A stretch of DNA of 64,000 bases, taken from Deltaproteobacteria bacterium HGW-Deltaproteobacteria-18 (GTDB lineage Bacteria; Desulfobacterota; Desulfovibrionia; Desulfovibrionales; Desulfomicrobiaceae). The notes under the pieces are model-generated. The model made no database searches and had not been told where the DNA came from. It saw nothing but the letters and a program-made list of their open reading frames with translations. The position numbers were made by a program, and so were the translations under genes. The DNA is taken from the NCBI GenBank assembly GCA_002841885.1, contig PHBE01000004.1:62001-126000 (forward strand). The letters run 5' to 3'. This document shows positions 47,993 through 62,451 of this stretch, one piece after another (within the stretch, counting starts at the first letter, position 1; every line of letters begins with the position of its first letter).

Positions 47993-48829
47993 CTAGCAAC
48001 TGCCCGGCATGCGCTGGAATGAACGGGTGGTCATGTTTGGAGAAAATATCTCGTAGCTGTTACGCCCCCTCCTTTTGGCCTGATACATCGCCAAATCCGC
48101 GTTATGCATCAGCACGTCGGCGTCAGCACCGTCATCCGGGCACATGGTGATGCCGATGCTCAAGGTGACACGCAGTTCTTGCCCGGAAATGAGATGGGGC
48201 TTCCCGACACTTTGAATCAGCTTCTCGGCGAAGTGGATGACGCTTTGCGAATCCCCTATATCCGGGAGCAGGATCACGAATTCGTCGCCGCCGTAACGAC
48301 TGACAGTATCCGAGTTGCGCACGCTCGCCTGCAGGCGCCTGGCGACGGATTGCAGCAACTGGTCGCCAATGGCATGCCCCAGGGAATCGTTGATGCGCTT
48401 GAAGTGGTCGATATCCAGAAACATCAGCGCCAGCTTGCTGCCGTGGCGATTCGCGAGCAGAATCGACTGTACCAGACGATCGGCCAATAGTGACCGGTTC
48501 GGCAAGTTCGTGAGCAGGTCATGCTCGGCCATGTGGGACAAATGGACCATGACCCTCTCGACCGCCTCGGCCACAACCTGGGCGTTAACCGATGCGACGA
48601 CGAGGTTTTCGTTTGCTTCCCGCAACGAGGTTTCCATTTCCGTACTGAATTCACCCTTGATTTTTTTGGCATTCTTGCGAGGCCGCAGCGCCTTCTTGAC
48701 CATCCTTGAGACTTCTTCCCGCCTGTCGGAAAACGCCTCGCCATGACTGTCTGATTTTGCTTCTGGCGACCTCTTTTCGGCAGCCTTCCGTTTTCTTCCG
48801 GCGTATCTGGTGTCAATCTTACAGATCAT
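47993..48829 (-). CDS. Diguanylate cyclase (GGDEF), soluble
   Basis: A 278-residue protein. The ATG at 48829 has GGGAGAAA upstream. The N-terminal 100 residues are basic and then helical without a recognisable sensor. The GGDEF domain (about 105-265) has HDLLTNLPNRSLL, DIDHFKRINDSLGH, an intact RYGGDEF active site and an RxxD inhibitory site (RNSD) five residues before it. It should make c-di-GMP with product inhibition. It overlaps the preceding gene by 11 bases and is the last of a three-gene run. Confidence 0.9.
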   Translation of the reverse strand: MICKIDTRYAGRKRKAAEKRSPEAKSDSHGEAFSDRREEVSRMVKKALRPRKNAKKIKGEFSTEMETSLREANENLVVASVNAQVVAEAVERVMVHLSHMAEHDLLTNLPNRSLLADRLVQSILLANRHGSKLALMFLDIDHFKRINDSLGHAIGDQLLQSVARRLQASVRNSDTVSRYGGDEFVILLPDIGDSQSVIHFAEKLIQSVGKPHLISGQELRVTLSIGITMCPDDGADADVLMHNADLAMYQAKRRGRNSYEIFSPNMTTRSFQRMPGSC

Positions 48830-49382
48830 GACGTTTCTCCCGCTCCGCCACCGCAGTTGCGACACCACAGACCGGAGCAAGCAGGCGCGTGGTCAAGGAG
48901 TTTCCAATCAAGGTGGCGAGCAATTCAATGAAAGTTATAAGCAGGGAACTGCTTGCCTGCGCTGCCGCGACCGGGTCGCGCCCAGCCATGCGCATGCTGA
49001 TTCGCAACGGAAGAGATTCGTGATCCACCGGCTCATCCGAAATAGCCAGCCAAGGGAAGGCGGCGCTCGTCAGATGCAGGGACCTGTTGAGAATGGCATC
49101 GACCCCATTGCCGCCGATCACAGGAGTCAACTGGGCGGAGATCAGCAGCCATATCTCGGAGGTCGCCTTGGCAATGGCGATTGCGTCCGCAGAGTCTCCG
49201 CCGCGTTGCCTCAGAGTACGTCGTATCGCTTCGCGACAATGTTCGCGATCTGTGATTGGTATGAAAATGACTCCTGAAAGATTATCCCGGCTTTTCCGTA
49301 TTGAAATGCACGGCTCATCAGAACGACGTAATAATTTATCGTATTTCGGTTGCCTCAAATTAGAACTGCTGCAAAGCTTCAT
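48819..49382 (-). CDS. Conserved-looking protein of unknown function, coupled to a diguanylate cyclase
   Basis: A 187-residue protein. The start at ATG 49382 overlaps the stop of the preceding small gene (TGATG), and its end overlaps the diguanylate cyclase start by 11 bases; this double coupling is the main support. Residues about 75-187 look like a compact helical domain with REAIRRTLRQRGG, a segment ending in ILNRSLHLTSA, and LLITFIELLATLIGNSLTTRLL near the C-terminus. I recall similar ORFs beside GGDEF genes but cannot name a family. The first 50 residues are low-complexity and may not be translated if initiation occurs further in. Confidence 0.6.
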   Translation of the reverse strand: MKLCSSSNLRQPKYDKLLRRSDEPCISIRKSRDNLSGVIFIPITDREHCREAIRRTLRQRGGDSADAIAIAKATSEIWLLISAQLTPVIGGNGVDAILNRSLHLTSAAFPWLAISDEPVDHESLPLRISMRMAGRDPVAAAQASSSLLITFIELLATLIGNSLTTRLLAPVCGVATAVAEREKRHDL

Positions 49383-49669
49383 CACGCATGACCACGCAGG
49401 ATTAAAATTGCCAAAAAGATCAGGATTGAAATTACAATAGCCCAAAGCAGAGTCCAGACAATTCTTCCAGATTTCTTGTCACACACAGAGATCCGCCATT
49501 TCTGGTCTTGTTGCAAAAAATTGAATTTGAGCGAATGCAAATTTTCAATATCTTTGTCTTTAGATCTTAAAATATTATTAAAAATAACATGTCGCTTGCT
49601 AACTTTTTGCAATAACATCAGTTCACCATGTTCGAATATTTGTTGATGTTTTATCAAGAGATCGAACAC
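49382..49669 (-). CDS. Small membrane-anchored hypothetical protein
   Basis: A 95-residue protein with a hydrophilic helical N-terminal part and one transmembrane segment near the C-terminus (WTLLWAIVISILIFLAILIL). Initiation is GTG at 49669 or possibly ATG 49618, which has GGTGA upstream. The stop overlaps the next start (TGATG). Not recognised; it may regulate or localise the downstream diguanylate cyclase (inference). Confidence 0.5.
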   Translation of the reverse strand: MFDLLIKHQQIFEHGELMLLQKVSKRHVIFNNILRSKDKDIENLHSLKFNFLQQDQKWRISVCDKKSGRIVWTLLWAIVISILIFLAILILRGHA

Positions 49670-50143
49670 GCAAACGCCAGAGAGAGTTCCTGCTCAACAA
49701 CAAACTTATTAAGCAACGATCGCGCCAACATGATACGAGAAATATAATCTTACAAAAGCCTGATTGCATTAACTAAATTAAAATTCAAAAGCGACAGAGG
49801 AGCAGCAAAATCAGAACAAATCCGTTGCATACACCAAAACCGGGATATATGACGGGCAAATACCTGAAAAAATACTTACGCTCTTGCGGATTATTATCCG
49901 AAAAAATATTTTCAACCCCCGTTATTGCAGTTAGAATTCTTTTTACTTATATGATGAACGCAAACAATATATGCATCACTTTTAGGATGCTCAAAAAGTT
50001 TCTACAAATTGCCGATTGATGTCTTACATTATGCGAAGACATTATTTCAATACAAATTGATCTTCAATTTCAGATCAAAGTGGAATTCTCACATTGCAAA
50101 ATTTTAATGACACAGTGCCAGAAACTATGTCATTAAAAATTAC
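49670..50143. other. AT-rich divergent intergenic region
   Basis: About 470 AT-rich bases between the minus-strand GGDEF operon and the plus-strand CheB-CheR gene. Small frames here (for example 49825-50019) have no ribosome site or family resemblance. No GG-N10-GC element was found. Confidence 0.5.
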
Positions 50144-54492: not shown

Positions 54493-54984
54493 CACGGCCA
54501 GCACCCGTTTCACCCAGGCCAGTCCTGGCCCTGGCATCGGCCATGGCCCCCTGCGACCGAATTCAATACCCCCACAGCTTCCTCGTCATCTCCAACCTGA
54601 ACATCATGCACCCCTCCTTACGACAGCACCAGCAAGACCCAAAGGGAGGCATGATGATTTCAGGCGTTCCGTCCTGCGCGGACAGGCTGTCATATACGGC
54701 GCCTGCGCCAAATGTGACCGATTCCCGTTGACGGATTTCCAATGCCCGCGCCCATCCCGATCTCCAATATCTTTGCAATCAGGTAGTTGCGTCCAGACAA
54801 ACGCCCTGTGTCGCAGGCACGAAAGTTGCGATTCAAAATACGCCGCAGTCCACACACACATGGATGCGTGGAATTCCGGGCTGTTCAACATTAACAGGCA
54901 ATCCTGCTTCCATTCAATCATTCCATCCGGAACCAAACACTCCATGAACGCCTGATCATATCGAAAAAAAAAGGAGGCAGAAAC
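54493..54984. other. Leader region of the baeRF3-like gene
   Basis: No gene seen. It holds the sigma-54 promoter at 54815-54830 and an AAGGAGG ribosome site at 54971-54977. The GC-rich first 150 bases have several GGCC palindromes but no T-tailed terminator. Confidence 0.5.
54815..54830 (+). promoter_or_regulatory. Sigma-54 promoter upstream of the baeRF3-like gene
   Basis: AGGCAC-GAAAG-TTGCG matches the -24/-12 consensus TGGCAC-N5-TTGCA, with invariant GG at 54816-54817 and GC at 54828-54829, exactly N10 apart. It is about 155 bases before the GTG start. Confidence 0.75.
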
Positions 54985-56148
54985 GTGTTACAGAACACAG
55001 TATCACCCACCATCGAATCTCTAGCCGAACTGACGGCGGCACATCAACCGCCATGCCTGTCCCTCTACCAACCGACACATCGTCACGGCCCCGAAAACAG
55101 ACAGGATCTGATCAGATTCCGTAACCTGGTCAAGTCCATGGAGTCATCGCTCAGGACAAAATACCCCGAACCAGAGACCAGACACTTCCTGGAGCCGTTT
55201 GAAGCTCTCGGGCTTGATCGCGAATTCTGGAACAACACACTGGATGGACTGGTTGTCTTGAGTGGGGCGGGCGTGTTGCGGGTGTTCCGACTCAGGAGGT
55301 CGGTTCCCGAACTGGCCATCGTAGGCAACAGCTTTCACGTCAAGCCCTTGCGGCGTTTCATGCAATACGTCGGCCGCTACCAAATCCTCGGACTGAGCCT
55401 GACCAAAATCCAGCTCTTCGAGGGAGACCTGGGCACGCTGGAAGAGATCGAGCCCGCCCGGGGAGTTCCGCGGACACTCACCGAAGCTCTGGGCTCCGAG
55501 TTGACCGAGCCTCATCAAACGGTGGCCTCCTACGGCGGGGCTGGAGGAGGCGTCGGCCCCATGCGTCACGGCCAGGGCGGGAAAAAGGACGAGGGCGACA
55601 AGGACACGCAGCGTTTCTTCCGGGCCGTTGATCGCGCGGTACTTGAGCATCACTCGCGCCCCTCCGGTCTGCCGTTGCTCCTGGCCGCACTGCCGGAGCA
55701 CCATCATCTCTTCCGGAGCATCAGCCACAACTCGTTCCTCATGGAGGAGGGCCTCGATCTCAACCCCTTCGTACTGACGTCATCCGAACTGCGCGAACGC
55801 GCGTGGGAACTGCTCGAACCCCAGTACCAGGCCTGGCTGGCCTCGCTGCGCGATGAATACGGAGAAGCGCAATCTCGGGGATTCGGCAGCGGCGACCTTG
55901 GAGAAGTTTTGAGAGGGGCCACCGACGGACGCGTGTCGAAGCTCATGATCGCATCCGATCGCGAGATTGCCGGTCGAATCCTGGGTGACACTGGCAAGTA
56001 TGAACTCACGGGCATCAAGGAAGAGAACGCCGCTGATCTGCTCGACGATCTTGGTGAACTGGTGGACAGGATGGGGGGGCAGGTTCTGGTCATGCCTGCC
56101 GCGCAGATACCTGGCAAGACCGGTCTGGCAGCCACCTTCCGATACTGA
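54985..56148 (+). CDS. baeRF3-like protein (bacterial archaeo-eukaryotic release factor family)
   Basis: A 387-residue protein starting at GTG 54985 behind AAGGAGG. The N-terminal part (about 10-150) has LYQPTHRHGPENRQD and the central part (about 150-290) contains the glycine loop VASYGGAGGG...MRHGQGGKKDEGD followed by QRFFRAVDRAVLEHH, which I recognise from the baeRF family 3. The last 100 residues resemble the eL30-like release-factor domain. Related proteins (eRF1, Pelota, the hibernation factor Balon) bind ribosomes; that role here is inference. It lies 490 bases after the sigma-54 activator and has its own sigma-54 promoter. Confidence 0.75.
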   Translation: MLQNTVSPTIESLAELTAAHQPPCLSLYQPTHRHGPENRQDLIRFRNLVKSMESSLRTKYPEPETRHFLEPFEALGLDREFWNNTLDGLVVLSGAGVLRVFRLRRSVPELAIVGNSFHVKPLRRFMQYVGRYQILGLSLTKIQLFEGDLGTLEEIEPARGVPRTLTEALGSELTEPHQTVASYGGAGGGVGPMRHGQGGKKDEGDKDTQRFFRAVDRAVLEHHSRPSGLPLLLAALPEHHHLFRSISHNSFLMEEGLDLNPFVLTSSELRERAWELLEPQYQAWLASLRDEYGEAQSRGFGSGDLGEVLRGATDGRVSKLMIASDREIAGRILGDTGKYELTGIKEENAADLLDDLGELVDRMGGQVLVMPAAQIPGKTGLAATFRY

Positions 56149-56326
56149 CCGGCTGGCTGTCGGGGAAACGCGCCAGACACCGCGTCCACCGAGAGCCAGC
56201 TGTCATATTTCGCAGATTCAGATCATATGATGGATCAAATGAACGGACTTACCACCCTATATATTCGACTCAATAATTTAAATAATTAATTCAGTATATT
56301 CATACAGTTAATTTATTGATATTCAA

Positions 56327-56342
56327 CGGAACGCTTATTGCT
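56327..56342 (+). promoter_or_regulatory. Sigma-54 promoter upstream of the 56.4-kb envelope gene run
   Basis: CGGAAC-GCTTA-TTGCT: GG at 56328-56329 and GC at 56340-56341 are N10 apart and the -12 half TTGCT is perfect. It lies 42 bases before the ATG at 56383 in a markedly AT-rich stretch. Confidence 0.75.
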
Positions 56343-56382
56343 CATATCATTACATCACCAATATATAACAAAAGAGGTGGAT

Positions 56383-56766
56383 ATGAAAATTCTCAGATAC
56401 TTTTCCGTTTTCTTGCTCGCTGGACTTCTCTTTACTGGAACGTCTTCCTGTTTTGCCCAAGGCACAACAGCAACTCCATCTCCTGATGTCGATGGATATG
56501 TATGGATGAAGTCAACCGATCCCGAAAAAAAGGCATTCCTGTTCGGAGCAGGAACAGCCGTCGCCCTTGAATACCAGATGCGAGCAAAACGCGCGGAAGA
56601 ACCGTCCAAGTTCATCAAAGGATGGATCGAGGCTTTTGACAACATGAGTTGGGCGGAAATGGCCTCCAGGCTCGACAATTATTACGAATCGAACCCTGAC
56701 AAGGCAAACAGGCTGGTATTTGACGTGCTTTGGCATGAAATAATCAAGCCCAACCTCCAAAATTAA
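56383..56766 (+). CDS. Secreted protein of unknown function
   Basis: A 127-residue protein starting behind AAAGAGGTGG. A signal peptide covers about 1-25 (ending SSCFA). The mature part has KKAFLFGAGTAVALEYQMR, KFIKGWIEAFDNMSW and DVLWHEIIKP, with helical, conserved-looking segments, but I cannot name a family. It is the first gene after a sigma-54 promoter and precedes a glycine-zipper lipoprotein by 10 bases, so an envelope-stress function is inferred. Confidence 0.8.
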   Translation: MKILRYFSVFLLAGLLFTGTSSCFAQGTTATPSPDVDGYVWMKSTDPEKKAFLFGAGTAVALEYQMRAKRAEEPSKFIKGWIEAFDNMSWAEMASRLDNYYESNPDKANRLVFDVLWHEIIKPNLQN

Positions 56767-56776
56767 GGAACCGGAT

Positions 56777-56998
56777 ATGCAAAAAATACTTCTCTCCCTC
56801 ATGATACTGTTACTTTTGAGCGCTTCCGCCTGCACAAACATGTCCCGCACGCAGCAGGGCGCATTGTCGGGCGGTGCCATCGGAGCCGGAGCGGGCCTTG
56901 GAATCAGCGCCCTGACTGGAGGCTCCCTGGGTGCCGGCGCCCTGATTGGAGGCGCGCTGGGCGGAGTCGCGGGCGGCATTTACGGCAATCAGAAATAA
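56777..56998 (+). CDS. Glycine-zipper lipoprotein
   Basis: A 73-residue lipoprotein. The signal peptide ends in the lipobox LSASAC (Cys19). The remainder is a glycine-zipper membrane-spanning hairpin (GGAIGAGAGLGISALTGGSL, then GAGALIGGALGGVAGG), as in small YMGG-like and OmpA-associated proteins that insert into the envelope. Ribosome site AAGGA. Transcribed with the preceding gene, 10 bases apart. Confidence 0.85.
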   Translation: MQKILLSLMILLLLSASACTNMSRTQQGALSGGAIGAGAGLGISALTGGSLGAGALIGGALGGVAGGIYGNQK

Positions 56999-57033
56999 TG
57001 ACTTTCAACTGTGCAGCAAGCACTGGAGTTACC

Positions 57034-57609
57034 ATGAACGGATTTATTGAAAAACACAGGCCGGGCATAACACACGGCATATTGCTGCTCGTAACGCTGG
57101 TGATGATGTGCATGACCGCAAGCGCCGCGCTGGCAAGAACAGCCGAAGAGATCGACACGCACGCCGACATGACGCTGCAGCGTTTTTACAAAGAGGTGAA
57201 CGGCGGCAAGGAGATTGCCCAGGAAGCCAAGGCGCTTCTCATTATGTCTGACGTAACCAAGGCAGGCTTTGTTCTTGGCGGGACCTACGGCCAGGGAGCC
57301 CTGCGAGCAAACGGCAAGACCACCGGATACTACAATCTCATCGCCGGATCGTACGGGTTCACATTTGGCGCGGAACAGATGGACATCGTCCTCGCCTTCA
57401 TGACCCAACAGGCGCTCGACGACTTCGTCAAGATTGAAGGCTGGGAGATCGGCGTCACCGGCAACGTCGCGTTCATAGATGTCGGCGGCGGCAAGAGACT
57501 GGACACCACTTCGCTCAAAGACCCTGTCGTGGCCTTTGTGTTCAGTCCTGAAGGGCTGATGGTCGATGCGTCCCTGAAGGGCGCAAAGTTCACGAAGCTC
57601 AACAAATAA
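57034..57609 (+). CDS. SYLF-domain (Ysc84-like) lipid-binding protein
   Basis: A 191-residue secreted protein; ATG 57034 follows CTGGAG, 35 bases after the glycine-zipper gene. A signal peptide or anchor (about 12-35, ending ASAALA) is followed by a SYLF domain (about 65-185): AKALLIMSDVTKAGFVLGGTYGQGAL, AGSYGFTFGAEQMDIVLAFM and NVAFIDVGGG. SYLF proteins bind phospholipids, in bacteria probably at the envelope. It belongs to the same gene run as the two preceding genes. Confidence 0.88.
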   Translation: MNGFIEKHRPGITHGILLLVTLVMMCMTASAALARTAEEIDTHADMTLQRFYKEVNGGKEIAQEAKALLIMSDVTKAGFVLGGTYGQGALRANGKTTGYYNLIAGSYGFTFGAEQMDIVLAFMTQQALDDFVKIEGWEIGVTGNVAFIDVGGGKRLDTTSLKDPVVAFVFSPEGLMVDASLKGAKFTKLNK

Positions 57610-57688
57610 GCTGTCACTTGCCGCACAAGGCAGGATCGTGTGCCCACAGGATGCGATCCCGCCCTGCCCGTGGAAGGAGAAAACAATC

Positions 57689-57841
57689 ATGGGACTCATA
57701 CTCATCATCATTCTTGTTCTCATATTCCTTGGAGCCTTGCCGACATGGCCCCACAGCAGGAGCTGGGGATATTACCCCAGCGGCGGGTTTGGGCTGATCC
57801 TTCTGATCGTGCTCATCCTGATGCTGATGGGAAGAATCTGA
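57689..57841 (+). CDS. DUF3309 small membrane protein
   Basis: A 50-residue protein that begins MGLILIIILVLIFLGALPTW, then HSRSWGYYPSGG and a second hydrophobic helix ending MGRI. This pattern is typical of DUF3309. The start has GGAAGGAGA upstream; an earlier in-frame ATG at 57638 does not. Two membrane helices with a central aromatic loop. Function unknown; commonly found near other small stress-membrane genes, as here. Confidence 0.85.
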   Translation: MGLILIIILVLIFLGALPTWPHSRSWGYYPSGGFGLILLIVLILMLMGRI

Positions 57842-57927
57842 AGCACTGCCGGAGAATCTCTCCGACTTGGCCGCCAGTACCCGCATGGCGTTTTTTCCAG
57901 GAATTCCTGAAAATTTAGGGGACCACC

Positions 57928-58455
57928 ATGAACACGCAACATTCGACCTACACAAAACTCAAATCGCTGATGGAAATGCTTGAAAGCAAGGACGGCCTGG
58001 TCCGTCAGAAGGCGCGGATAGCCCTGGTGGAACTGGACGGCCCCGCCGTCATCCCTCTCTCGGACGCACTGACGCACTCGAAGCTGGATCAGACCCGTTG
58101 GGGCGCCGCAAAGGCGCTTGGCGAAATCGTCGATGTCAGATCAATCCCCGCGTTGGTGAACGCACTCGAAGACAAGAATGCCGACGTGGCTTGGCTTGCG
58201 GGTGTAGCGCTGCGAAAATTCGAGAAGGCGGCCTGGAAGCTCCTGCTGCAGAAATTGATCGAAAGCGGAGTGGATTCCGTAAGGCTGCGCAACGGAACGC
58301 GCCATGTGTTCAGCAGCCAAAAAGAGGAAGGATTCAACGACCTGCTTGAGGAGCTCATGACTGCTCTCGAAGATGCGGCGCTCCCGGAAGCCGGAGCAAT
58401 CGTCGCAACGGAAATCCTGAAACGCATGCGGATCGAGGACGTGGATGCAGCCTGA
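57928..58455 (+). CDS. HEAT-repeat (PBS lyase-like) protein
   Basis: A 175-residue cytoplasmic protein. Residues 15-110 contain about three HEAT/PBS-type helical repeats (VRQKARIALVELDGPAVIPL, RWGAAKALGEIVDVRSIPAL, VAWLAGVALRKF), a protein-interaction scaffold. The C-terminal third is helical and not recognised. The ATG follows AGGGGA. Its role within the stress cluster is unknown. Confidence 0.82.
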   Translation: MNTQHSTYTKLKSLMEMLESKDGLVRQKARIALVELDGPAVIPLSDALTHSKLDQTRWGAAKALGEIVDVRSIPALVNALEDKNADVAWLAGVALRKFEKAAWKLLLQKLIESGVDSVRLRNGTRHVFSSQKEEGFNDLLEELMTALEDAALPEAGAIVATEILKRMRIEDVDAA

Positions 58456-58552
58456 GAAATGTGATCAAGCACCCGATGCCCAACCCAGAACCGGTGCATC
58501 GCTTTATTCGAGTGCCGCGTACAACATGTTACCGAAGGACAATGGAAATCAG

Positions 58553-58870
58553 ATGATGGAAAATTTCACGAATATTATCAAGATCGTAATGTGCATGCTG
58601 CTTTTGACATCACTTTTGAGCTGCGCTGGCACAAGCCAGAGGGAAAGCACCGGTCAGTATGTTGACGACTCCGCTATTACAGCCAAGGTCAAAGCAAGAA
58701 TATTTGATGAAGACTCTTTGAAGTCAATGCAGATAACTGTGGTGACGTTCAAAGGAGACGTTCAGCTGAGTGGCTTTGTTGATTCCTCACATAATGTCAT
58801 CAAAGCAGGAAAAATTGCCAGGAATGTTGCAGGCGTAAGATCCGTAAAAAACGATCTCGTGGTAAAATAA
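58553..58870 (+). CDS. BON-domain lipoprotein (OsmY-like)
   Basis: A 105-residue lipoprotein. The tandem ATGATG at 58553 is chosen because it directly precedes the signal sequence with lipobox LLSC; the ribosome site is weak (GGAAA). The mature part is one BON domain (DDSAITAKVKARIF, VVTFKGDVQLSGFVDS, VAGVRSVKNDLVV). BON lipoproteins bind phospholipid and protect the envelope during osmotic stress. It follows the HEAT gene by 97 bases; its stop is followed by a nine-T run but only a very short stem. Confidence 0.85.
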   Translation: MMENFTNIIKIVMCMLLLTSLLSCAGTSQRESTGQYVDDSAITAKVKARIFDEDSLKSMQITVVTFKGDVQLSGFVDSSHNVIKAGKIARNVAGVRSVKNDLVVK

Positions 58871-59389
58871 GATTTTTTTTTAATTGGCACATTCACTCTG
58901 CTCATTCAAACACGGAAAACGACTTGCTGCATGAGCCGCTTTTTCAGGTCCGACAGTTTCCTCGAAATTGCGACATATAGCCTTAATGACATGCTCATAA
59001 TGCATCTCTGCCGTGGTTTGCGGGCTCTGTCCTCCATTCCTTGTACGATATCGTAGTCGCGAGTCGAAGACATCATCCAGGTTGCAAGAAGACCTGGAGG
59101 AAATTTTTTTGTGCTCGTATATTTAGAGCGACCAAAGGTGAAATCTTGCAGTAGCGCCATATGTGACGCTTTCAGCTTCTTTGCTTTTCCCGCATGATAT
59201 CAGAAACAATATATTTTATTATTTATAATCAACTTGTTGCACAAAATAATAAAGCAATGCCAAGTTTGGCACATTCATTGCGATACACTAATTACCCTCT
59301 GGAAACGTGTCGCCTCCCATTTCAATAAAAGTGCGAGGTTGTGAAAGAGCTGAAATATTTTGAATTTTTAACAAAAAAAGGAGAGGTGA
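58871..59389. other. Intergenic region with small minus-strand frames
   Basis: Two overlapping minus-strand frames exist: 58906-59160 (84 codons) and 58880-59005 (41 residues, with VIKAICRNFEETVGPEKAA). Neither has a ribosome site or a family I recognise; one could be a gene remnant. The region ends with the sigma-54 promoter of the CsbD gene. Confidence 0.35.
59267..59282 (+). promoter_or_regulatory. Sigma-54 promoter upstream of the CsbD-like gene
   Basis: TGGCAC-ATTCA-TTGCG is an almost perfect match to the -24/-12 consensus, with GG at 59268-59269 and GC at 59280-59281 separated by ten bases. It lies about 108 bases before the CsbD start. Confidence 0.85.
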
Positions 59390-59569
59390 ATGAAGTCCAG
59401 CACAATAAATCAGGCGAAAGGCGTTTTCCATGAAGCCAAAGGCAATATCAAAAAAACCGTCGGAAAGATTATCGACAACCCATCCCTAGAGACCGAGGGG
59501 CTAGTGGAAAAAATTGCAGACAAGGCACAGAAAAAAATAGGACAGGTGGAAAAAGTTCTGGACGAATAA
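59390..59569 (+). CDS. CsbD-like stress-response protein
   Basis: A 59-residue hydrophilic protein: MKSSTINQAKGVFHEAKGNI, then KKTVGKIIDNPSLETEG and KAQKKIGQVEKVLDE. This matches the CsbD pattern of K/G-rich helical repeats. The start follows GGAGAGGTGA. CsbD proteins accumulate in general stress in many bacteria; the molecular function is unknown. An almost perfect sigma-54 promoter upstream suggests control by the activator at 52.8 kb. Confidence 0.88.
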   Translation: MKSSTINQAKGVFHEAKGNIKKTVGKIIDNPSLETEGLVEKIADKAQKKIGQVEKVLDE

Positions 59570-59721: not shown

Positions 59722-59943
59722 ATGAAAACGTTAAGCATAGTCGGAATACTACTGATTGTCCTTGGAATCGCAACCTTTGCTTACCAGGGTATAACCTACA
59801 CGACCCAGGAAAAAGTCGTTGACCTTGGACCTCTCCAGATGACGGCTGAAAAAACACGGACAATTCCTCTGCCCCCCATCATGGGCGCAATCGCCCTGGC
59901 GGGGGGAATCGCCCTGCTTATTGTTGGAAAGAGAAACTCCTGA
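59722..59943 (+). CDS. Small two-helix membrane protein of unknown function
   Basis: A 73-residue protein with membrane helices at about 4-22 (LSIVGILLIVLGIATFAY) and 50-68 (IMGAIALAGGIALLIVG), joined by a short loop containing KVVDLGPLQMTAEK and TIPLPP. I have seen similar proteins near stress-membrane genes but do not assign a named family. AGGAG lies five bases before the ATG. Confidence 0.8.
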   Translation: MKTLSIVGILLIVLGIATFAYQGITYTTQEKVVDLGPLQMTAEKTRTIPLPPIMGAIALAGGIALLIVGKRNS

Positions 59944-60333: not shown

Positions 60334-62451
60334 ATGAAGAGCCGTATCAATCAATCCGGAAATCTGGACCTGCTTCGCAGAAAGGCTGAAGAAATCAGCC
60401 GGAAGAGCGAAGCCGGTTCGCCGGAGAGCCATGCCGACGACCCTATCGGAGATGCCTCATGGATGGTCCATGAGCTGCACGTTCACAAAATCGAGCTCGA
60501 GATGCAGAATGAGGAATTACACAGGACGCATGAAGATCTTGAAAAAGAGCACGAGCAATATCTGGATCTCTACGACTTTGCTCCAGTTGGATATTGCACC
60601 ATCTCGGAACAGGGACAGGTCATGGCAACCAATCTCACAGCCACGACAATGCTCGGCATGACCCGAAACAATCTCGTTGGCCAGCACATAAACCGCTTCA
60701 TCCGTGATGAGGAACAGCACACCTTCTCCCGCAACATACGACAACTTTTTGCAACCGGGGAAGCACAGGACTGCGAACTGGGCATGAAGAAATCTGACGG
60801 GACCGACTTTTGGGCCAGCCTCAAGGCGGTCTTGAAGCTGGACATGAACATCCCCGCCTGCCGCATCATCATAAGCGACAGCAGTGACAGGAAAAAAGCC
60901 GAGAAGGCGCTGGCCGAGAGCGAACTGCATTTCAGAAACCTGGCCAACTGCGGCCAGGCGCTGATCTGGACTTCCGGAGTAGACAAGCTGTGCGACTATT
61001 TCAACGAACCCTGGCTCACCTTCACCGGACGCACTCTGGAGCAGGAGCTCGGCAACGGCTGGCTCCAAGGAGTCCATGCGGAGGATTTTGATCGTTGCAT
61101 GGCCACCTATGTCTCGGCCTTTGACCGGCGCGAACCTTTCAGCATGGAGTACCGCCTGCGCCATGCCGACGGCGAATACCGCTGGCTGGTCGATCAGGGC
61201 ACGCCACGCTTCGACTCCGGGGGTGCGTTCGCCGGGTACATCGGCCATTGTCTGGACATCACCTCCCGCAAGCACATGGAAGAGGTGCTCCTGGCCACAA
61301 AAAAGGCGGCTGAATCGGCGAATATGGCCAAGAGCGCTTTTCTGGCCAACATGAGTCACGAAATCAGAACCCCGCTAAACGGACTGCTGGGCATGATGCA
61401 GTTGCTCGAATTCACGGAGACAAACGACGAACAGCGCATGTACATTGAGATGGCCATCCGCTCCGGGGGCAGACTTACCCGCCTCTTGAGCGACATTCTC
61501 GACCTTTCCCGCATCGAGGCCGGCCGGATGCCGTTAGGCGAGCAGCCGTTCAGCCTGTCCGAAACGTATGCCGCCATTACCGAAAGTTTTGGCCCGCTGA
61601 GCATTCAGAAGAGTCTGCCTGTTCGCATCGACGTCGCGCCGGACGCGCCCTCGGATGTGTTCGGGGATGAGGTCCGCGTACGTCAGGTACTGTTCAATCT
61701 CGTCGGCAACGCCATGAAGTTTTGCGACCAGGGAGAGGTCAGGCTCGAGGTGTCGACGCTGCTTCCCATGCCGCCGGATACCGTTCGCATGCTGTTCTGC
61801 GTTTCTGATACGGGAGCGGGGATGAGCGATACGACGATCGAAACTTTGGGTTCCCCTTTTACCCAGGCCAGTAACGGCTTCAGCCGCAAGCATCAGGGCG
61901 CAGGGCTTGGAATCTCCATATGCAAGCGCCTTGTTTCCGCGATGGGAGGGACTCTGACCTTTGAGAGTGCGCCGGAGCAGGGGACCAGCGCCTACCTGAT
62001 GCTCCCCTTCAGGCAGAGAGAGTATTCAATGCTCCCGGATCAGTCTGCCGCCGACTCCGTCTCGCCCTCGCTCCGAATTCTGCTTGTTGAAGACGACGAA
62101 ACCAGCCGCGTGGCTGAAATGGAGATGCTCAAAAGGATGGGCCACTCCGTGCAGACGGCGAACAACGGGATCGAGGCACTCAGTTGCATGCGTCAGAACA
62201 CCTTTGATTGCGTGCTGATGGATGTGCAGATGGAGGTCATGGATGGCCTTGAGGCCACCAGGAAAATCAGAACGGACGTCTCCAGTTTTTTTGACCCCAC
62301 AATCCCCATTGTCGCCATGACGGCATCTGCCATGTCTGGCGATCGAGAGCGGTTCATGATGGCCGGCATGGATGACTACATCTCAAAACCATTCGAACTC
62401 AACAATCTTACGGAAGTGCTGGGCGGCATTGACGTCAACGACAGCAAATGA
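60334..62451 (+). CDS. Soluble hybrid histidine kinase (PAS-PAS-HisKA-HATPase-REC)
   Basis: A 705-residue kinase without membrane segments; the ATG follows GTGGAG. Residues 45-75 (VHELHVHKIELEMQNEELHR) and the following PAS (to about 180) closely resemble the N-terminus of the sigma-54 activator at 52.8 kb. A second PAS spans about 190-315. HisKA has phospho-His near 341 ([16 protein letters not shown]), HATPase about 445-565, and a receiver about 582-700 with LVEDDE and VLMDVQMEVMDG. It may sense the same intracellular cue as the activator. It is the last gene of the stress cluster. Confidence 0.92.
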   Translation: MKSRINQSGNLDLLRRKAEEISRKSEAGSPESHADDPIGDASWMVHELHVHKIELEMQNEELHRTHEDLEKEHEQYLDLYDFAPVGYCTISEQGQVMATNLTATTMLGMTRNNLVGQHINRFIRDEEQHTFSRNIRQLFATGEAQDCELGMKKSDGTDFWASLKAVLKLDMNIPACRIIISDSSDRKKAEKALAESELHFRNLANCGQALIWTSGVDKLCDYFNEPWLTFTGRTLEQELGNGWLQGVHAEDFDRCMATYVSAFDRREPFSMEYRLRHADGEYRWLVDQGTPRFDSGGAFAGYIGHCLDITSRKHMEEVLLATKKAAESANMAKSAFLANMSHEIRTPLNGLLGMMQLLEFTETNDEQRMYIEMAIRSGGRLTRLLSDILDLSRIEAGRMPLGEQPFSLSETYAAITESFGPLSIQKSLPVRIDVAPDAPSDVFGDEVRVRQVLFNLVGNAMKFCDQGEVRLEVSTLLPMPPDTVRMLFCVSDTGAGMSDTTIETLGSPFTQASNGFSRKHQGAGLGISICKRLVSAMGGTLTFESAPEQGTSAYLMLPFRQREYSMLPDQSAADSVSPSLRILLVEDDETSRVAEMEMLKRMGHSVQTANNGIEALSCMRQNTFDCVLMDVQMEVMDGLEATRKIRTDVSSFFDPTIPIVAMTASAMSGDRERFMMAGMDDYISKPFELNNLTEVLGGIDVNDSK

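Follow-up and report, generated by a model that had tools for sequence, protein, structure and literature searches.

A receiver-less sigma-54 activator paired with a CheB-CheR-PAS fusion probably runs a general-stress-type regulon in a Desulfomicrobiaceae bacterium

Which genes does a sigma-54 activator without a receiver domain control, and what might such a set of genes be for? The question is raised by a locus within a 64 kb stretch of DNA (the window, G000:C4:62001-126000) from the 3.99 Mb genome of Deltaproteobacteria bacterium HGW-Deltaproteobacteria-18, where the gene for a PAS-containing sigma-54 enhancer-binding activator directly follows one for a CheB-CheR-PAS fusion protein. An earlier examination of the letters alone (the sequence-only reading) had proposed that this pair controls a local regulon for envelope and ribosome stress through three sigma-54 promoters, located before a baeRF3 gene, an operon that begins with a secreted protein, and csbD. 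The analysis presented here suggests that the activator, a one-component regulator paired with the CheB-CheR-PAS protein, probably runs a regulon of the general-stress type. Loci and genomes used for comparison are cited by our own L and G labels.

The evidence for such a regulon begins upstream of the promoters. Comparison of the upstream regions in the window, in the congeneric locus L031 (activator 82% identical) and in a Geobacter locus, L032 (61%), gave a palindromic consensus, CGTCATATATGACG. The sequence-only reading had recommended looking for an activator palindrome 80-200 bases upstream of each site, and each of the four promoters now recognized has a palindrome at 108, 111, 125, or 126 bases before it. 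The fourth promoter, TTGGCGCGATCGTTGCT (49712-49728, minus strand), outscores every other site in the window with a sigma-54 scoring matrix, which runs counter to the earlier statement that no equally good match had been noticed between the other genes. When a palindrome matrix made from the five window copies is combined with the sigma-54 score, exactly four pairs of palindrome and promoter are found in the 64 kb, all of them at this locus. The same four pairs are recovered at each of three thresholds by a matrix made only from Geobacter copies, four in number and picked by eye after the window had been seen. As a control, 200 block-wise dinucleotide shuffles of the window gave a mean of 0.885 pairs (maximum 4) at a threshold of 6, 0.26 (maximum 3) at 8, and 0.05 (maximum 1) at 10.

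The arrangement of these elements is regular. Across 42 promoters from 28 sources, selected by palindrome threshold and with identical promoters counted once and orthologous promoters counted apart, 50 of the 54 palindromes lie either 107-112 or 125-131 bases from the start of the −24 element (search range 104-131). A 13-base sequence that we take to be the consensus for integration host factor (IHF) is matched in 23 of these promoters; 22 of the matches fall at −37 to −41 from the −24 start, and one is a reverse match elsewhere. By comparison, 1000 shuffles gave a mean of 0.8 and a maximum of 4, and the consensus was found in none of the 42 control segments beyond the palindrome. Three of the four window promoters have the site at −37 to −39. 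A first scan, with a consensus one base too short, had returned 1 match in 42 and was superseded by the 13-base scan. IHF sites between enhancer and promoter are common at sigma-54 promoters, although not universal.

Conservation in relatives, the second test that had been suggested, is also observed: wherever the activator is accompanied by these sites, be it among congeners, in further families of the phylum, or in a Geobacter record, the two are kept jointly. All four pairs are retained in L031 (the same contig as G024:C6, counted once). In G029 and G039, the locus retains the pairs of baeRF3 and of the secreted gene, and the fourth type of promoter is found elsewhere in the genome (L209, L203). 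When the window is aligned with three congeners, the longest invariant run in the baeRF3 promoter is GGCACGAAAGTTGC (14 columns; mean column identity 80%) and that in the secreted-operon promoter is GGAACGCTTATTGCT (15 columns; 82%). Across the phylum, 17 of 395 genomes, including the host's own, have an activator match at E<=1e-140, and at least one pair occurs at 10 of the 16 loci around the activators from other genomes. A pair is found at all seven loci with full-length orthologues (56-63% identity, from six other families), which are not fully independent because L234 and L235 belong to one genus. The 16 phylum loci (274 kb) contain 16 pairs, compared with 0 in a mirror control; two of these pairs, antisense over the activator gene, are probably spurious. 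A control set of 73 loci around other activators (1.17 Mb; L037-L098 and L100-L110) gave 1 pair, and 3 in the mirror control. L031-L036 and L099 were excluded from this control set as closer relatives, and L036 was tested as L243.

The distribution of csbD follows a similar line. Among 16 genomes of the genus, two of which are <90% complete, full-length activators occur in G000, G024, G029, G039, and G061, and CsbD occurs in the first four of these; the remaining 12 have none, G061 being the one activator-bearing genome among them. Four of the 5 genomes with a full-length activator therefore have CsbD, versus 0 of the 11 that lack one (Fisher p=0.0027, with relatedness ignored). Examination of 37 csbD loci identified a pair at 6 of 12 in activator-bearing genomes versus 0 of 25 in others, five of the 25 coming from genomes with a more distant activator. 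At L249, the pair stands at the head of the cluster, ~1.4 kb upstream of csbD.

There is strong support for the view that the neighbouring activator would drive the promoters together, as a single regulon: the palindrome occurs at a fixed spacing, the IHF-like site at a fixed place, and both are conserved along with the activator. The earlier proposal of control by this activator is therefore retained, but its restriction to the locus is not, since a fifth promoter lies outside the window, ~13.5 kb past the CsbD promoter (L167:8751).

Several observations weigh against the single-regulon reading. The sigma-54 core with <=2 mismatches occurs 51 times in the window versus 73.7 expected, and in the whole genome, with <=1 mismatch, 118 times in the forward and 126 times in the reverse direction versus 117 and 139 for the reversed pattern. 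The core motif alone was rejected as evidence because these counts are not above chance in either the window or the genome. The three TGGCAC-N5-TTGC matches of the sequence-only reading have the positions and exact GG-N10-GC spacing claimed for them (54815, 56327, and 59267), but only one of the three is a strict match (1, 2, and 0 mismatches), and the promoter at 56326 has a poor −24 element and is without an IHF match at the usual place. Core counts no higher than chance would be expected if the sigma-54 sites were chance matches and the genes used other promoters, an explanation that becomes exceedingly improbable in the face of the fixed enhancer and IHF geometry and of conservation in distant relatives, which speaks strongly against it.

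Other points on this side concern the operator. The host's own genome has 11 palindromes with <=1 mismatch, and no more than 3 of these are matched by a correctly placed sigma-54 site, two inside the window and one beyond. A loose paired scan of 38 sources returned off-place or low-scoring pairs at L032 (1328, 1653, and 11627), L112, L124, L167 (19381), and L168, and because they turn up at several loci the loose setting has some background. The palindromes before the phosphoketolase and LigD genes of congeners lie at 115-116, one helical turn nearer and away from the two main places. No pair exceeds the matrix threshold at L134 (G061, activator 80% identical) or at L163 (a second copy in G024, 81%), where there is a pattern match only, and the paired scan found none at L034, L035, L036, L044, L136, L165, L166, or L169. 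Among the more distant activators of the phylum, only 3 of 9 loci have a pair. The csbD gene of G029 is without its own promoter pair because coding sequence precedes it, and it is probably co-transcribed. The gap pattern was counted 34 times in the five activator-bearing congeners (3 for the reversed control), 16 times in nine congeners without a close activator (2 for the control), and, outside the genus, 6 in G076 (control 2) and 5 in G123 (control 0); the excess consists partly of recurrent coding matches, and the counts show enrichment, but also background. The reversed-pattern control was considered too weak as sole evidence because the nine congeners without a close activator exceed it too. 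One pattern match in the own genome, G000:C12:65126, has no pair in L211 and was taken as chance. Finally, G058 has a pair, yet no activator match at E<=1e-100; the pair in this genome (L210) precedes a gene for a secreted-looking protein.

This last case leads to the possibility that the palindromes are bound by another activator or by a paralogue, with the neighbouring activator linked to them by position only. Several genomes do have more than one similar activator (4 matches of this type in G024, 4 in G039, 3 in G061, and 2 in G029), and G058 combines the site with the lack of a close activator. In the own genome, however, only one of the candidates scored (4 of 88) matches at E<=1e-100, and the contrast between the seven orthologue loci and the 73 control loci places the pairs near this activator. 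Furthermore, a changed helix in the helix-turn-helix (HTH) of the more distant activators goes with a changed operator, CTCCATATATGGAG or similar, that has low scores (9.0-10.4) and unchanged spacing; at L237, L239, and L241 such an operator is located at the same 111/129 positions. The operator thus appears to drift together with the HTH, and binding by a different regulator is quite improbable.

The features of the locus are collected in Table 1.

Table 1. Predicted genes, promoters, and regulatory sites of the locus, by position in the window; d, bases upstream of the −24 start.
Feature	Position	Strand	Basis or remark
Small membrane-like open reading frame (start MLLQKVSKRH), first gene of fourth unit	49382..49618	-	Sequence; counterpart in L203, L209
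Fourth sigma-54 promoter, TTGGCGCGATCGTTGCT	49712..49728	-	Top matrix score in window; divergent from CheB-CheR gene
IHF-like site, fourth promoter, AATCAGGCTTTTG	49753..49765	-	Assumed consensus
Putative activator palindrome, fourth promoter, CGTCATATATCCCG	49841..49854	-	d=126
CheB-CheR-coil-PAS fusion, 874 amino acids	50144..52768	+	Pfam CheB_methylest, CheR_N, CheR, PAS_10
PAS/sigma-54 enhancer-binding activator, 575 amino acids	52765..54492	+	Pfam; GAFTGA in translation
Putative activator palindrome 1, baeRF3, TGTCATATACGGCG	54688..54701	+	d=126; kept in three congeners
Putative activator palindrome 2, baeRF3, CGCCAAATGTGACC	54706..54719	+	d=108; 18 bases from palindrome 1
IHF-like site, baeRF3 promoter, AATCAGGTAGTTG	54777..54789	+	Assumed consensus
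Sigma-54 promoter of baeRF3	54814..54830	+	Core AGGCACGAAAGTTGC at 54815, 1 mismatch to TGGCACN5TTGC
baeRF family 3 protein, GTG start	54985..56148	+	Pfam PF18845, 161.7 bits
Putative activator palindrome, secreted operon, TGTCATATTTCGCA	56201..56214	+	d=125; conserved
Sigma-54 promoter of secreted-protein operon	56326..56342	+	Core CGGAACGCTTATTGC at 56327, 2 mismatches; weak −24, CGGAAC
Probable operon: secreted-looking 127-amino-acid protein, glycine zipper, SYLF/Ysc84, DUF3309, HEAT repeats, BON	56383..58870	+	Pfam; order kept in L031, L160, L161
Putative activator palindrome, csbD, CGCCATATGTGACG	59155..59168	+	d=111
IHF-like site, csbD promoter, AATCAACTTGTTG	59227..59239	+	Assumed consensus
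Sigma-54 promoter of csbD	59266..59282	+	Core TGGCACATTCATTGC at 59267, 0 mismatches
CsbD	59390..59569	+	Pfam PF05532, 48.9 bits, cut-off 40
Small membrane-like protein	59722..59943	+	Open reading frame; homologue 3' of CsbD in L031, L160, L164, and L202 (by eye)

In the secreted operon, the 127-amino-acid secreted-looking protein has no Pfam match and the glycine zipper match is under its Pfam cut-off. The small membrane-like protein after csbD, presumably of the DUF3185 type, is possibly read together with it. Counterparts of the fourth promoter occur in L031, L203, and L209; in the last two, the counterpart of its first open reading frame (ORF) is followed by a 210- to 224-amino-acid orphan and then by KaiC (L203, Pfam) or a KaiC-like remnant (L209, by eye), the L209 KaiC seeming to be truncated. 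The window differs in that its fourth promoter (region 47993-49445, minus strand) is followed by an ORF that we take to be GGDEF-like, with no KaiC ORF seen there. The leader of baeRF3 (54838-54984) is conserved in sequence among congeners; a structured leader found no support, with changes on both sides in 2 of 25 predicted pairs. In the Geobacter locus (L032:11838-11932), the first sigma-54 promoter after the activator has a strong terminator-like hairpin downstream, within 95 bases, and may therefore make a small RNA. As a general feature downstream of the activator, a small RNA was rejected: such a hairpin was located behind only the Geobacter promoter among 12 promoters checked.

The targets predicted elsewhere extend the picture. 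In the own genome, a B12-binding radical-SAM protein with DUF4070 lies behind a promoter of this type (C4:134752), and a very similar protein with the same promoter type is found in Geobacter L032. In congeners, the promoters precede genes for BON (L200, Pfam; L204, by eye), phosphoketolase (L201, Pfam; L207, by eye), LigD (L205), CsbD (L202 and L208), and the KaiC unit (L203), as well as an alpha/beta hydrolase with an iron superoxide dismutase (Fe-SOD) further downstream (L206, weaker site) and hemerythrin (L208, weak site). Targets in other families include CsbD-BON (L231), CsbD accompanied by BON and additional small membrane proteins (L232), and a 2,920-amino-acid protein (L230).

What kind of response would these genes serve? 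Pooled over several genomes, the genes that follow the promoters include candidates for a general-stress regulon (CsbD, BON, LigD, SOD, and the like). Target genes other than csbD have links to stress, and BON/OsmY, LigD, SOD, and KaiC are gene types shared with RpoS, EcfG, and SigB regulons. The csbD gene is held in common with the RpoS and EcfG general stress regulons, as it is reported as a target under RpoS in Salmonella (as yjbJ) and under EcfG in Sphingopyxis (PMC5437024, PMC7083833). Unlike this regulon, RpoS, EcfG, and SigB systems use a stress sigma factor of the sigma-70 family, whereas here sigma-54 and an enhancer-bound activator would do the work. A stress role is thus suggested by the gene content of the targets.

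The same promoters could instead belong to a specialized envelope/ribosome or redox response under this activator. Several of the targets in the window have the look of secreted, membrane, or ribosome-linked proteins (SYLF, glycine zipper, BON, DUF3309, and baeRF); baeRF proteins have been proposed to act on ribosomes, with some families adjoining hibernation-factor genes (PMC6514570), and the cell exterior is the largest functional group among sigma-54 operons of Desulfovibrio vulgaris (PMC4641369). However, the targets in relatives include LigD, phosphoketolase, KaiC, and B12/radical-SAM proteins, and less surely Fe-SOD, which leaves a specialized response unlikely, if far from implausible. 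Of the envelope and ribosome stress response in the sequence-only reading, the stress component is suggested by gene content, while the LigD, phosphoketolase, KaiC, CsbD, and BON genes of relatives look more general.

The activator itself matches Sigma54_activat (PF00158, 240.6 bits) and has a Fis-type HTH (HTH_8), together with a weak PAS_9 match under its cut-off. The earlier statement that it has GAFTGA and no receiver was borne out by translation and by Pfam: at E<=0.001, a receiver domain was found neither in the activator nor in the CheB-CheR-PAS protein. It resembles NtrC-class activators in its AAA+ sigma-54 interaction domain, GAFTGA, C-terminal Fis-type HTH, and distal palindromes, for which binding is predicted from sequence, and differs from response regulators of the DVU3305 type, which have an N-terminal receiver. 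The 3' end of the CheB-CheR-PAS gene shares 4 bases with the start of the activator gene. Neighbourhood counts, made after removal of weak or short matches of the activator, CheB-CheR, and kinase queries, place the two genes side by side in L031, L032, L160, L161, L164, L230, and L232-L235, and ~1 kb apart in L229. Among the seven full-length-orthologue loci of other families, the fusion gene is near the activator in six and farther away in L231. The pairing is conserved, in agreement with the sequence-only reading. No kinase domain was found among the Pfam matches of the CheB-CheR-PAS protein, and a phosphorelay through the pair is unlikely because neither protein has a receiver match and the partner is without a kinase domain.

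Two further observations concern signalling. The cluster ends with what we take to be a PAS hybrid histidine kinase (60334-62451), which L031, L160, and L164 also retain and which may be a member of the same signalling system. Where the multiple activators of G024 (C2, C5, and C21), G039, and G061 were compared, their HTH regions are similar and the match leaves the N-terminal part uncovered, perhaps reflecting several inputs onto one operator.

Sigma-54 regulons with one-component activators are already known, with 37 activators described in D. vulgaris (Kazakov 2015, PMC4641369). As in those regulons, the activator here is receiver-less with a Fis HTH, has the GAFTGA found in most of them, is associated with a predicted motif, and has targets adjoining it; the −24/−12 promoters are also alike (consensus tGGcacg / tTGCt). 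Among the functions that the paper names for the 37 activators (its Table 1 lists locus numbers), none fits this gene set; its main text has 0 occurrences of CheB, and no mention of CsbD was found in the portion available. The three-component system DVU3303-3305 of D. vulgaris similarly involves a sigma-54 activator that its authors tie to general stress in a sulfate reducer (Rajeev 2011, PMC3333781). DVU3305, however, belongs to the response regulators, its motif reads GAFSGA (PMC4641369, Table 1), and its targets are of the UspA type. The activator here lacks a receiver, has GAFTGA, and has CsbD, BON, and baeRF among its predicted targets. IHF is required at the sigma-54-regulated orp operons of D. 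vulgaris (PMC3897727), which have another activator and other targets. In Geobacter sulfurreducens, RpoN over-expression altered stress genes without identified RpoN sites (PMC2725144). The Borrelia Rrp2-RpoN-RpoS cascade, as far as the available account goes, also feeds sigma-54 into a stress-type programme, but there it acts via RpoS, whereas here the stress genes carry predicted sigma-54 promoters themselves. What appears to be new is the combination of general-stress-like content and an unusual CheB-CheR-PAS partner with ordinary sigma-54 mechanics. In the open-licence literature searched, neither the activator nor its operator nor this set of genes was found to be described, in line with the earlier remark that such a regulon had not been seen described, nor was an account found of general stress organization in sulfate reducers without RpoS.

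The sigma factors of the family fit into this picture. The own genome has an RpoN gene. None of the 22 genomes of the host family has an RpoS above the TIGR02394 cut-off (the search did not extend to EcfG or SigB). In the own genome, the RpoS model matches, in addition to RpoN, three proteins of the sigma-70 type, with open frames of 614, 377, and 293 amino acids, which we take to be RpoD, an RpoH type, and FliA or similar. An alternative stress sigma among these was rejected, as all three fall short of the RpoS cut-off. A role as a substitute for RpoS can be proposed for the host family only, because the RpoS search covered these 22 genomes and Geobacter sulfurreducens presumably has RpoS.

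A working model can be put together from these elements. The PAS input would sense stress, and an oligomer of the activator would bind the CGTCATATATGACG-like palindromes, of which each promoter has one or two, located 108-111 and/or 125-126 bases before the −24 element. IHF would bend the DNA between enhancer and promoter, and the AAA+ ring would open the complex of sigma-54 polymerase. The output would comprise baeRF3, the secreted/glycine-zipper/SYLF/DUF3309/HEAT/BON operon, csbD, and the minus-strand unit, and the regulon would constitute a general stress response (CsbD, BON, LigD, phosphoketolase, KaiC, and B12/radical-SAM-DUF4070; Fe-SOD less surely) in a family without detected RpoS. 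The CheB-CheR-PAS protein may supply the signal by a methylation-like step or direct contact, not by phosphorylation; this modulation of the activator is the least certain part of the model and a weak one.

The widest form of the proposal is plausible rather than probable. It holds that in this family, in which no RpoS was found, and perhaps also in further Desulfobacterota and certain Geobacter relatives that share the activator, a sigma-54 PAS activator with a co-transcribed CheB-CheR-PAS protein may run a multi-operon general stress response without a phosphorelay, through palindromes (often in tandem, 18 bases apart) and IHF. CheB-CheR-PAS fusions standing apart from chemoreceptor genes are common, and the model, if true, would give a use for them. 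It would also add a fourth general-stress architecture beside RpoS, SigB, and EcfG, and would provide part of the answer to how sulfate reducers without RpoS organize general stress: by a sigma-54 enhancer regulon with a defined operator, a defined spacing, and a sensor pair.

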